Part shown: piece after piece, positions 5,152 to 63,405 of the stretch
Layout of the letters: each line of letters starts with the position of its first letter
Position numbering within the stretch: position 1 is the first letter of the stretch
NCBI GenBank assembly: GCA_021324395.1
Contig: JAJPJG010000038.1
Coordinates: 1 to 64,000, forward strand
From: Spartobacteria bacterium
GTDB lineage: Bacteria > Verrucomicrobiota > Verrucomicrobiia > Chthoniobacterales > Chthoniobacteraceae
Direction: 5' to 3'
Length of the DNA stretch: 64,000 bases
Made by a program: the position numbers and the translations under genes
Notes under the pieces: generated by a model
The model's database searches: none
What the model was told of the DNA's origin: nothing
The model's input: the letters and a program-made list of their open reading frames with translations, nothing else

Positions 5152-5445
5152 ACTGCATGGCTGCACACCGTTCGTGGCGGGCTCGCCGGATGTTGTGTGG
5201 GGGCTGACAACTGCTTCGCCGAGCCCGACGATTCAATCTCCGGGCTTCGCACCGCAATCGTCGAGCCCGACGAAGCATTCCACGGGCTTGACAACGCAAT
5301 CCACGGGCTTAGCACTTGGGGAAAACAAGCTCCACATTTGAGAAAGCAAGCTCCACACTTGAGAAGTCGGGCTTCGCACCTGACGAATCGAGTTCAACAA
5401 TTGAAAAAACGAGCCCGGCAGTCGAAGCGGCGGCTCGGTTTTGTG
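5152..5445. repeat. Degenerate 21-nt tandem repeat array (copy 1)
   Basis: About 14 units of 21 nt can be laid end to end. Most share a CGAGC/CGGGC(T/C) core followed by a (C/G)ACA-like stretch. Two neighbouring units at about 5341-5382 are nearly identical (AAGCAAGCTCCACA...TTGAG). Because 21 is a multiple of 3, several frames are open and read as heptad-like peptides, but none has a good start or ribosome site, so I do not call a gene. The unit at 5385-5405 (AATCGAGTTCAACAATTGAA) resembles units of the second array near 62.2-62.6 kb, which suggests one repeat family at two places. Confidence 0.75.
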
Positions 5446-52698: not shown

Positions 52699-52850
52699 CC
52701 TCTCATCTTTTCCCGCAGGTCATTTCATTTTATTGAAACGAACTGTGGGCTGGATTTGGCACCTGGTCCCCGACGCTTCGTTCTCACGAAACATCGAGCG
52801 GTTGCCGTGACTTCAACGGGCCAGTCCCTCAGTCACTCTCGATAAGAGTG
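52699..52850 (-). promoter_or_regulatory. SAM-I (S-box) riboswitch
   Basis: On the minus strand the RNA begins CTCTTATCGAGAGTGACTGA, then GGGACTGGCCCGTTGAAGTC, ACGGCAACC, CCAGGTGCCAAATCC, and closes with GATGAGAG, which pairs with CTCTTATC to form P1. These are the conserved core elements of SAM-I: the kink-turn and pseudoknot strand GGCCC/CAACC, the GGTGCCAA J-region and P1. The start codon of the PLP enzyme lies 61 bases after P1. No terminator hairpin with a T run is visible in that space, so control at translation (GGAG site) is more likely than at transcription. Confidence 0.95.
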
Positions 52851-52954: not shown

Positions 52955-53030
52955 TGGAGCCAACGACGGGATTCGAACCCGTGACCTGCTGATTACGAAT
53001 CAGCTGCTCTACCAGCTGAGCTACGTTGGC
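52955..53030 (-). tRNA. tRNA-Thr(CGT), intact
   Basis: Reading from 53030, GCCAACG acceptor strand, D-arm AGCTCAGCTGGTAGAGC, anticodon arm GCTGA-TTCGTAA-TCAGC (anticodon CGT), T-arm GTTCGAATCCC, then CGTTGGC, T and encoded CCA. All stems pair. A degraded copy of its 5' half lies in the same orientation at 57953-57976, marking this gene as an integration site. Confidence 0.97.
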
Positions 53031-60949: not shown

Positions 60950-62014
60950 CTAAAACTGTCCGTTCGCCGAAACCGAGATCGTTGTTTGATTCACCGGCGC
61001 GACGGCCGACGCCGGTTTGTCCGGCACGCGATAACTTACGCCGAATCCCGCGCCAATCGTGTTGGTGAATTTCCAGTTTGTGCCGAGGCTGAGCACGACT
61101 GCGTTGTCGTTGTTTAAAATTTCCCCGTCGCGACTGCGGTCTTTGACTTCGCGCGACACGCGCAGATTCATGCTCATCGGTTCGACCGGCTGAAGTTTTA
61201 CTTCGGTAAAATACGCGTTGCTCGCTTCCTCGATGCCGGAAAGCGAGAATGTCGAATCCTGCGACTGCAATCCGCACGACCAGCTCGCTTGCGGGCGGAT
61301 TTTCCACAGCAGCGCCGCGTCGAATTTCGCGCCGGTTTTGTCGCGGTCCGGCAGCAACTCCGTCTGGTCGTTGCTCAGCGCGGTCGCCGTCTGCAACGTC
61401 ACCGGCACGAACGGCAGCTTCTGCTCGAGCGTCAGGCCATAGATGTCCTCGAGCAAAATCGTGTTGTCGAATGCGCGCGTTTCCTGCCGGCTCGCCTGCG
61501 CGCTGATTTTCGTGACGTCTTTTTGCGGCATCCACGCGAGTTCGCCCCCGTATTTCACCGCGTCGGAAAAACCCGCCTGCGAATCGGACGCGCCGCGCGA
61601 GAGCTGCGCGTAATCAGTCACCGTCAAATGCCACGGCAGCTCGACGGCGAGGCTCACCTTGTCCGTCCACCACATGGTCACCGGCGCGGTTTCGGTGAGG
61701 TCGTTAAAAATGCCGTTGTTCTGTCGCGTAAAATCGCCGCCGGTCGAATAACCGAGCGTGACGTGCTCGAACACCGGCAGGCGATACGCGAGGCCGAAGC
61801 GTTGCTCCGCCGTTTCCGACTCCATGCCGTAGGTAAAAATGCGCTGGTAACTCAGCGGCTCGATCGTGAACTCGAAATGCCCCGCGCCATTTCCCCCCGG
61901 CTGCGGTGCCGGCGCGATGATCGGGATCTCGCGCGGATAAATCGGCGCGGACAGCTCTTCCGCGCAAAGTGTCGAACCCGCGAGTGCGAGCACGCAAAGA
62001 AAACGCCGTTTCAT
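60950..62014 (-). CDS. Outer-membrane beta-barrel-like protein of unknown function
   Basis: The 354-residue protein has a signal peptide (MKRRFLCVLALAGSTLCA) followed by alternating hydrophobic and polar strands (HVTLGYSTGGDFTRQ, VSLAVELPWHLTVTDY, AKFDAALLWKIRPQASWS) and ends in TTISVSANGQF, with the terminal Phe typical of outer-membrane barrels. It converges with the xylanase gene 17 bp away. It may form a porin or structural barrel; no family is recognised. Confidence 0.7.
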   Translation of the reverse strand: MKRRFLCVLALAGSTLCAEELSAPIYPREIPIIAPAPQPGGNGAGHFEFTIEPLSYQRIFTYGMESETAEQRFGLAYRLPVFEHVTLGYSTGGDFTRQNNGIFNDLTETAPVTMWWTDKVSLAVELPWHLTVTDYAQLSRGASDSQAGFSDAVKYGGELAWMPQKDVTKISAQASRQETRAFDNTILLEDIYGLTLEQKLPFVPVTLQTATALSNDQTELLPDRDKTGAKFDAALLWKIRPQASWSCGLQSQDSTFSLSGIEEASNAYFTEVKLQPVEPMSMNLRVSREVKDRSRDGEILNNDNAVVLSLGTNWKFTNTIGAGFGVSYRVPDKPASAVAPVNQTTISVSANGQF

Positions 62015-62167
62015 TTGCGCCGGAGCTTATCGGCCGCCATGGAAAATTCAAGCGCGCGCGCCAAAATCGTCGTCGCATTCCCGAAACCGGCCCGCGCATC
62101 GCACCGGAACGTCCCATGCCCCTCGCGAAACGAACCCGGCCACTGCCGCCATCATCCCTGCCATTTC

Positions 62168-62585
62168 GGAAACCCGCACGCGCAATACTGGAATCGACTT
62201 TCACCCTCCGGAAATCGCCTTGCACAGTCCGGAAACCGACTTTGACAACGCTGAAATCGATCTGCGCAGTCGTGAAATCGACTTGGACAGTGCTGGAATC
62301 GACATGCGCAACTCTGGAATCGAGTGGGACGGTTCTGAAATCGACTGTGACAGTTCTGGAATCGAGCCGCACACTCTGGAAATCGCGAGTGACAACGCGG
62401 AAATCGCCCCGGACACTCCGGAAACTGCGAGTGACAGCGCTGGAATTGAGAATGACATCTCTGGAATTGAGAGTGACAACGCAGAAATGAGACGGGGCAT
62501 GGCTGGAATTGACCAGCACAACGCTGGAACCGCCCGTGACATGGCTGGAATCGACCAGCGCACCTCTGGAATCACCCTTGGCTGG
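62168..62585. repeat. Degenerate 21-nt tandem repeat array (copy 2)
   Basis: About 20 units of 21 nt (a few 20 or 22) follow the pattern GGAATCGAC-NNN-GACA-NNN-CT. All three plus frames and at least one minus frame stay open through it and read as heptad peptides (SGIEWDG, AGIENDI, SGIESDN, and so on), but these lack start signals. The pattern resembles array 1 at 5.15-5.45 kb (AATCGA-N4-ACA-N4-GAA). It lies between the outer-membrane-type gene and a heptanucleotide array. Confidence 0.85.
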
Positions 62586-62626
62586 CTAAAGATAACCAGC
62601 GCATGTCCGAAAATCGAACAAATCGG

Positions 62627-62711
62627 CCATTGGCTCATTAGTCATTGGTCATTAGTCATTGGTCATTGGTCATTAGTCATTGGTCATTGGTCATTAGTCA
62701 TTGGTCATTGG
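62627..62711. repeat. Heptanucleotide TTGGTCA/TTAGTCA array
   Basis: About twelve tandem 7-mers, alternating TTGGTCA and TTAGTCA, begin 42 bp after the 21-nt array. The same 7-mer class is known as STRR in cyanobacteria and recurs in many phyla. No gene is formed. Confidence 0.9.
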
Positions 62712-62870
62712 CCGTTCTCTTTTTCTCTTGTCTCAAAGGTCATTTGTTATACGAATTGCTAACTCTGAAAACCGACAAGGAAGCCGATTTTATGCGAACC
62801 ATTTCCACCTTTTCAGAAGCACCCAAGTTCGCCGAATTCAGAATTAAGTGACTTCGCTTACACCAGATTC

Positions 62871-63215
62871 ATGCGACCTTTAGCTCATTTCTTAATTATC
62901 TGGGGAGTTATTCTTTTACTCTTTGCAGCCTACGACGAGCATCGAGAGATTGCATCCGTGATTCCACCGGGCCGTTACGGTAGGCGTCAAATTATCAAGA
63001 AGGCAGATAAGCCAGAGGAGTTTCGCAATCTTATGATATACCAGTGGCTGCGAGATTCGTTGGTCGTTTCAGCAGGCTTTATCATTCTCGGCATGTGCCG
63101 TCGTGCCGACAGTCTTGATCCATTCTCTCCAGACTTTGCAGGCAAGTCAGAGATTGACGATCTGGAGCGAACCCTTGATGAAGAAGAGCAGAAGCGACAC
63201 CGACCACTAAAATGA
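62871..63215 (+). CDS. Small two-helix membrane protein of unknown function
   Basis: The 114-residue protein has membrane spans at about 5-20 (HFLIIWGVILLLFAAY) and 65-79 (SLVVSAGFIILGMC), and a charged, acidic tail (SEIDDLERTLDEEEQKRHR). No family is recognised. It is AT-richer than upstream genes, is followed by a palindromic-type segment (CCTAAC...GTTAGG) and a second small gene, and could be a captured cassette. Confidence 0.65.
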   Translation: MRPLAHFLIIWGVILLLFAAYDEHREIASVIPPGRYGRRQIIKKADKPEEFRNLMIYQWLRDSLVVSAGFIILGMCRRADSLDPFSPDFAGKSEIDDLERTLDEEEQKRHRPLK

Positions 63216-63222
63216 CCAGTCC

Positions 63223-63391
63223 CCTAACCATGCGATGCAGCTAACAGGCTTCGCGCGTCACGGTAGCTTGCTCCCCGCAGACCCGCCGAGCAGTAGCCAA
63301 CCCGCAGGGAAGGGCCTGCAAGGTTTCGACGCGTCCGCTGACACAGCCAAGCAAGTGAGATGGTGAGCTAAGTTGGATTTTTGCGTTAGGC
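63223..63391. other. attC-like segment (weak)
   Basis: CCTAAC at 63223-63228 and GTTAGGC at 63385-63391 are inverted at either end of about 170 bp with further short inverted parts, between two small unrelated genes on the same strand. This resembles an integron recombination site, but it is longer than usual (57-141 bp) and the inner pairing is weak. No integrase is nearby. Confidence 0.25.
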
Positions 63392-63405
63392 CTACTACGC
63401 TCATC

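Follow-up and report, generated by a model that had tools for sequence, protein, structure and literature searches.

Array 2 and its surroundings

Array 2 is a degenerate tandem repeat near the right end of the analysed window, a stretch of 64,000 nucleotides from the genome of a Spartobacteria bacterium (G000; Table 1). It consists of 20 units in an unbroken 21-bp register, in agreement with the roughly 20 units of the preliminary description, and 18 of them (62190–62567) are strong. When the decayed units recovered by profile alignment are included, the array spans 62064–62612 and contains three small indels overall. The identity of the array to itself is 0.61 at lag 21, 0.68 at lag 42, 0.60 at lag 63 and 0.60 at lag 84, and in 2000 mononucleotide shuffles the lag-21 identity had a mean of 0.255 and a maximum of 0.328 (z 16.2). 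A 7-bp signal is absent from the lag analysis of array 2. The observation itself is confirmed, and the consensus proposed earlier, GGAATCGAC-N3-GACA-N3-CT, was nearly correct, except that position 2 is A or G and position 8 is mostly A or C. The units had also been described as drifted; this holds for some columns (11 and 17 are close to random across the 18 strong units), whereas others have never moved (columns 1, 3, 4 and 15 are invariant).

Table 1. Positions of the arrays and associated features; coordinates without a prefix refer to the window
Feature	Position	Strand	Remarks
Array 1	5159..5433	+	13 units by profile, own consensus, one 1-bp insertion
SAM riboswitch	52700..52848	-	Rfam
tRNA	52958..53030	-	Rfam
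Left neighbour gene	60950..62014	-	354 aa; N-terminus resembles a signal peptide; without Pfam match; its 5' side faces array 2
Array 2, decayed units	62064..62168	+	Small indels; profile alignment
Array 2	62169..62588	+	20 x 21 bp; motif G-R-A-A-T-C-G-A-C-N3-G-A-C-A-N3-C-T
Array 2, last decayed unit	62589..62612	+	Profile alignment
Heptamer array	62628..62711		CATTGGT / CATTAGT; adjoins array 2; 21-bp superperiod
Segment shared with the flank of the C11 copy	62739..62851	+	
attC-like integron ends around a small ORF	62739..63400		By resemblance to the attC motif
Right neighbour ORF	62871..63215	+	114 aa, outside the X families
alaS array, this genome	L065:12127-12443		G000:C17; in frame, nine heptapeptide repeats in a loop
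alaS arrays, different Verrucomicrobia	L259:2032-2445; L157:6837-7131		In frame, unrelated motifs
Protein kinase linker, G037	L082:7023-7316		About nine 7-residue repeats (QTPAGAV), 21-bp array
Two abutting arrays, G025	L259:12876-13446		21 bp, different motifs, directly adjacent

A copy of array 2 is present on contig C11, with similar heptamers alongside. Because the segment to the right of the heptamer array also adjoins the C11 copy, array and flank have been copied together. Array 2 may also adjoin an array of cassettes, as ends resembling GCCTAACTCTGAATT are present close to three further arrays of this genome. Searches of array 2 against plasmids and phages gave no match, and only one weak sigma-70-like promoter site was found at the array, about the number expected by chance.

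That array 2 encodes a heptapeptide repeat protein is an idea to which we give almost no credence. There is one open frame on each strand (0, 1 and 13 stops in the three forward frames and 0, 1 and 1 in the reverse frames), including a 180-aa ORF starting at 62220, and stops alone therefore cannot rule out translation at this locus. The coding score of array 2 is 10, however, compared with 100–300 for ordinary genes, the fixed columns straddle codons, and sister arrays contain stops and slips. The earlier claim that the arrays do not encode a peptide stands insofar as the fixed columns ignore codons and other arrays carry stops and a 1-nt slip; it is qualified by the open frames of array 2 and by one array of this genome that is translated, in alaS.

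A genome-wide period with private motifs

A motif-free scan at lags 5 to 99 covered 850,879 of the 3,682,466 bases of this genome, in the window and 40 other stretches, and identified 28 places at lag 21, 27 at lag 42, 20 at lag 63 and 15 at lag 84, followed by lags 7 (9 places) and 18 (7 places). Some stretches were picked through motif-search matches, so the density of arrays in this sample is not unbiased, and one of the 28 lag-21 places is the heptamer array adjoining array 2. The count of units and spacing that the preliminary description had called for thus shows 21 bp to be a genome-wide period. Lag 21 is dominant in three genomes: the one studied here, G037 from another family of the order (8 places in 240,000 bases) and G025 (4 in 160,000 bases). 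Translated repeats, or repeats that may be translated, account for some of the lag-21 places in G037 and G025 and for a few in G000. Samples of 68–100 kb from seven other genomes (G001, G002, G004, G038, G040, G042 and G048) lacked degenerate 21-bp arrays, and the five lag-21 rows in them (four in G048 and one in G040) represent repeats that are simple or resemble coding sequence; the first sample of one genome, which was partly N, was discarded. The distribution of the arrays among genomes is patchy. Heptamer arrays also occur in G048.

From 40 lag-21 rows, nine were dropped (the heptamer array, one overlapping row and repeats that are or may be translated), leaving a set of 31 arrays. All 31 have the 21-bp period in common, and the consensus sequence differs from array to array. 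Motif classes nevertheless recur: 38 of 465 array pairs exceeded the 99.5th percentile of permuted profiles, compared with 2.3 expected. Array 2 shares its class with its C11 copy and a weaker third array in G000, with an array in G028 and with two in G037. Array 1 has a copy on contig C5, pieces of which are 83–88% identical. Solo copies of the unit motifs outside arrays are almost absent, and a scattered regulon of single sites was rejected since the motifs are almost confined to arrays. In array-free intergenic DNA of this genome, the residual 21-bp signal is small (0.012 excess identity, with other multiples of three reaching at most 0.011).

Fixed columns, symmetry and curvature

Unit identity is 0.605, 0.627, 0.602 and 0.599 at distances of one to four units and 0.551 at ten. 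As it is nearly flat along the array, the units do not resemble the product of a recent slippage tree. Column conservation is uneven in 29 of the 30 arrays tested (one array with fewer than eight units was left out), judged against a star with equal rates, a null to which a duplication tree would also add some unevenness. Spacing has been kept better than sequence, as was proposed earlier: the 31 arrays contain 2611 substitutions from consensus and 28 indels, the latter count being biased by lag-based detection, which favours indel-free arrays.

The motifs of 15 of the 31 arrays are dyad-symmetric at p < 0.05. Within these 15, the two halves do not covary (1456 paired cells compared with 1470 expected, z -0.97), with single arrays at the extremes of z 2.6 and z -2.8. 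A second set, composed of arrays linked to the X genes described below and overlapping the first at a few loci, gave a similar result (18 of 38 dyad-symmetric, halves at z -0.62). Dyad symmetry in the absence of covariation fits the half-sites of a dimer on duplex DNA and not RNA hairpins. Transcription of the arrays, either in small RNAs or in 5' leaders that carry a series of hairpins, would account for the inverted repeats in half of the motifs and for the many arrays located 5' of genes. We consider it very improbable given the lack of covariation in both sets; moreover, array 2 folds no better than shuffled sequence (z 1.6 and -0.6), and Rfam, which matched only the SAM riboswitch and the tRNA elsewhere in the window, gave no match over the array.

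Phased bending, suggested in the preliminary description, would allow the arrays to curve or supercoil DNA without any sequence-specific binder. Predicted curvature (calculated from wedge angles) is higher in the 31 arrays than in their column-permuted versions (0.577 compared with 0.422, mean z 0.83), and likewise in 33 X-linked arrays (0.565 compared with 0.426, mean z 0.91); in array-free intergenic DNA it is 0.312 (n = 127). The suggestion thus has a basis for the arrays as a group but not for array 2 itself, which shows no excess over versions of itself with the columns shuffled (z -0.07). Permuting columns also alters dinucleotides, A+T content has no 10.5-bp component across the arrays (z 0.0), and the fixed columns are exact bases and palindromes. 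Overall, bending by itself appears improbable as the function of the arrays.

Gene families downstream of the arrays

Several families of small, mostly helical proteins recur in the flanks of arrays. We refer to these as X1, X2 and X3, and to the later additions as X4 and X6. X1 consists of a predicted helical bundle and a fibronectin III domain (residues 116–206; Z 16.2, rmsd 1.1, 89 residues aligned). X3 is predicted to be all-helical, and its best fold match (2rld_C; Z 9.0, 98 aligned, rmsd 3.1) is within the noise for helical bundles; Foldseek returned nothing for it below E 0.001. No known DNA-binding domain was found in X1–X4 or X6, NCBIfam and PHROGs searches with X1, X2 and X3 produced weak rows only, and there was no match for X1 in plasmids and phages or for X3 in plasmids. 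Among 57 genomes, X1 occurs in 15, X3 in 11, X6 in seven and X4 in one.

Of the eight clear X1–X3 genes in the sampled stretches, seven directly follow an array. The eighth, an X3-like gene about 4 kb to the right of array 2 (C41:66794), does not, and two weaker X1 profile matches also lack an array. Of the seven genomes with array-negative samples, only G042 has an X gene, an X1, and an array is present at this gene itself. Across genomes, arrays lie upstream of 38 of 52 X1/X3 genes and downstream of 2 of 53 (57 loci were fetched, 52 of them with at least 300 nt upstream; loci with shorter flanks were excluded, for X6/X4 as well). For X6/X4 the counts are 12 of 14 upstream and 0 of 13 downstream, after removal of the short matches L346 and L352. 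As a baseline, 905 genes predicted by our own codon-usage script, without an annotation pipeline, have an array upstream in 24 cases and downstream in 26, with periods 20–22 scanned for the baseline and 16–27 for the X loci. The distance from the end of the array to the X start codon has a median of 156 nt, an interval in which sigma-70-like promoters are no more frequent than expected (2 found and 2.9 expected at 34 loci).

The period is largely constant at these genes: 37 of the 38 upstream X1/X3 arrays have units of 21 or 22 bp, and one has units of 25 bp. Upstream of the X1-type genes at L291, L290 and L279 (G006 and G031) the unit is 22 bp. Two X3 genes with 21-bp arrays occur in G318, from another family of the class, and the X3-like loci of G119, G152 and G220 are without arrays. 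A motif is common to 14 of 45 pairs in which the X proteins are similar at more than 150 bits, always in the same orientation, compared with 2 of 237 pairs of unrelated X proteins. The motif therefore follows the X protein, imperfectly, and vertical descent alone could be sufficient to produce this pattern.

Several observations speak against the binding model outlined below, among them the lack of a known DNA-binding domain in the X proteins, the lack of a promoter excess between array and X gene and the few periods of 22 or 25 bp. Solo copies of the motifs are almost absent, unlike in a usual regulon, and many arrays have no X gene downstream: an X1–X4 or X6 gene follows only 9 of the 31 arrays, and at least 8 of the 31 sit between convergent genes. 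Array 2 matches X3-linked arrays in motif class and orientation, but no X gene lies close to it; cassette-like sequence and other genes follow instead.

Changes in unit number and arrays within coding sequence

Eight pairs of homologous arrays were aligned, of which L323/L324 proved unalignable; in that pair the gene has been conserved and the array next to it replaced. Most length differences between homologous arrays amount to whole units. The C11 copy is distinguished from array 2 by blocks of 63, 42 and 42 bp together with a single 10-bp gap; for array 1 and its copy the differences are 63 and 1 bp, for L321/L326 21 bp, and for L054/L041 16 and 26 bp (42 together). Some of the gaps in L302/L304 are not multiples of 21. 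In the seven alignable pairs, changed sites number 50 of 605 in fixed columns, 136 of 647 in middle columns and 162 of 733 in free columns; with L323/L324 included, the counts are 168 of 899, 154 of 683 and 168 of 747. Columns were classed by one of the two partners in each pair, a procedure that favours fewer changes in fixed columns.

In-frame arrays occur in a loop of alaS (Table 1). The same loop, of about 44–48 residues between the same landmarks, is present in most relatives. In the array of this genome, the nine GGT codons are identical down to the third base, as are the nine ACC codons, and the codons between them vary. G025, G011 (42-bp units) and a subdivision-3 genome (L157) carry arrays with other motifs at this place; the array in the loop is degenerate in G037 and weak in G022. 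The G037 kinase linker is a further coding example.

Functionless satellites could underlie these patterns if a mutational ruler duplicated DNA in 21-bp steps and arrays expanded and then decayed. Consistent with this are copy-number changes of 21, 42 and 63 bp, the occurrence of the period in alaS loops and the kinase linker, and the superperiod of the heptamers beside array 2. Young, near-homogeneous arrays in G025 (lag scores 0.95–0.98) in particular keep such a ruler in consideration. Neutral satellites would not be expected to consist of star-like units with uneven columns, to show dyad symmetry, to change less at fixed columns or to be so strongly biased to the upstream side of X genes. 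We therefore regard this explanation as unlikely, but serious.

Comparison with known repeat systems

Iterons and ParC-type plasmid centromeres are tandem arrays of degenerate sites at helical spacing on which proteins load side by side; they are confined to a single locus or a small number of loci, use one motif and have a known binder encoded alongside. The arrays described here are similar in their tandem sites at helical spacing (a 21-bp register), but they occupy dozens of loci with private motifs and no known binder. A Pfam search of 10 proteins flanking arrays identified no replication or partition gene, and the neighbours of array 2 are unlike such proteins by sequence (the Pfam scan covers the left neighbour). 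REP/RAYT elements are likewise intergenic, palindromic and multicopy, but differ from these long tandem arrays, which lack covariation in a genome without a RAYT. A RAYT (Y1 transposase) as the driver was rejected (no match in G000, whose assembly is 91.5% complete, and one weak match in G037), as was a hairpin kept by paired changes, the corresponding REP feature, since neither array set shows covariation. Cyanobacterial STRR heptamers are short intergenic tandem repeats that resemble the heptamer array beside array 2; array 2 itself differs in having no 7-bp lag signal and in having fixed and free columns. The constant repeat and spacer blocks of CRISPR were not found, fixed and free columns being interleaved, and Argonaute-guided arrays were rejected because a Piwi gene occurs in none of 16 genomes.

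The BrickBuilt minisatellite-MITE of Porphyromonas gingivalis consists of intergenic tandem repeats at 19 loci of one genome, with a 23-nt unit of one common sequence and a leader and tail with inverted-repeat ends (PMC4596501). These elements are similar to our arrays in being intergenic tandem repeats at many loci of one bacterial genome, and dissimilar in that here the unit is 21 bp and the consensus differs per array. Non-autonomous mobile elements with such a minisatellite body, copied round the genome together with their flank, would explain why three array pairs share flanks and why arrays without X genes resemble X-linked classes. Only those three pairs share flanks, however; in most arrays motifs and flanks are unrelated, common ends were not seen, the RAYT transposase is missing, and mobility would account for spread and not for column constraint. 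Mobile elements are thus a distinctly improbable explanation. Iterons, BrickBuilt and REP elements each have a defining feature that was looked for here and is lacking, and known arrays match one or two features. The open-access literature searched yielded no description of comparable arrays, which may represent a protein-binding DNA element of a type not previously described.

A proposed model: phase-locked binding arrays

We tentatively assign array 2 to a class of phase-locked protein-binding arrays, an assignment that is plausible though short of probable. Each array would comprise about 7–25 degenerate sites placed 21 bp, or two helical turns, apart, each array having its own, often dyad-symmetric, motif. 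The observations behind the assignment are the single genome-wide period, the fixed and free columns, the lack of covariation, the changes in copy number mostly by whole units and the strong bias to the upstream side of X genes. We infer that a dimeric or oligomeric protein binds there, aligned along one face of the helix, since two-turn spacing would place all bound proteins on the same side. The fixed, often symmetric columns would then be protein contacts and the free columns uncontacted. A loaded array may control the X gene next to it, or be read by that gene. Arrays linked to X genes would serve these as cis elements; where a motif-bearing array has no X gene nearby, as in the case of array 2, it would be a copy or a survivor of such a module. 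The natural candidate for the binder is either the X protein or a protein specific to one motif class. The preliminary description, which is borne out in part and had suggested a filament or nucleoid protein as a possible binder, overlooked the fixed columns, the dyad symmetry, the private motif of each array and the downstream gene families.

A more speculative extension of this binding model, which we consider unlikely, is that the arrays represent private protein-DNA codes on a genome-wide scale. Each X protein or a partner would read its own upstream array of about 15 sites, motif and protein would change together while a multimer keeps the 21-bp geometry fixed, and a shared filament or ruler-like enzyme would build arrays even in alaS.

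At dozens of loci the period is the same and the sequences are unrelated, which sets geometry apart from sequence as the trait that is kept; such a distinction is rarely visible in bacterial non-coding DNA. The alaS arrays show that the process operates even within an essential gene, and the upstream link to uncharacterised X families provides a direct test system.
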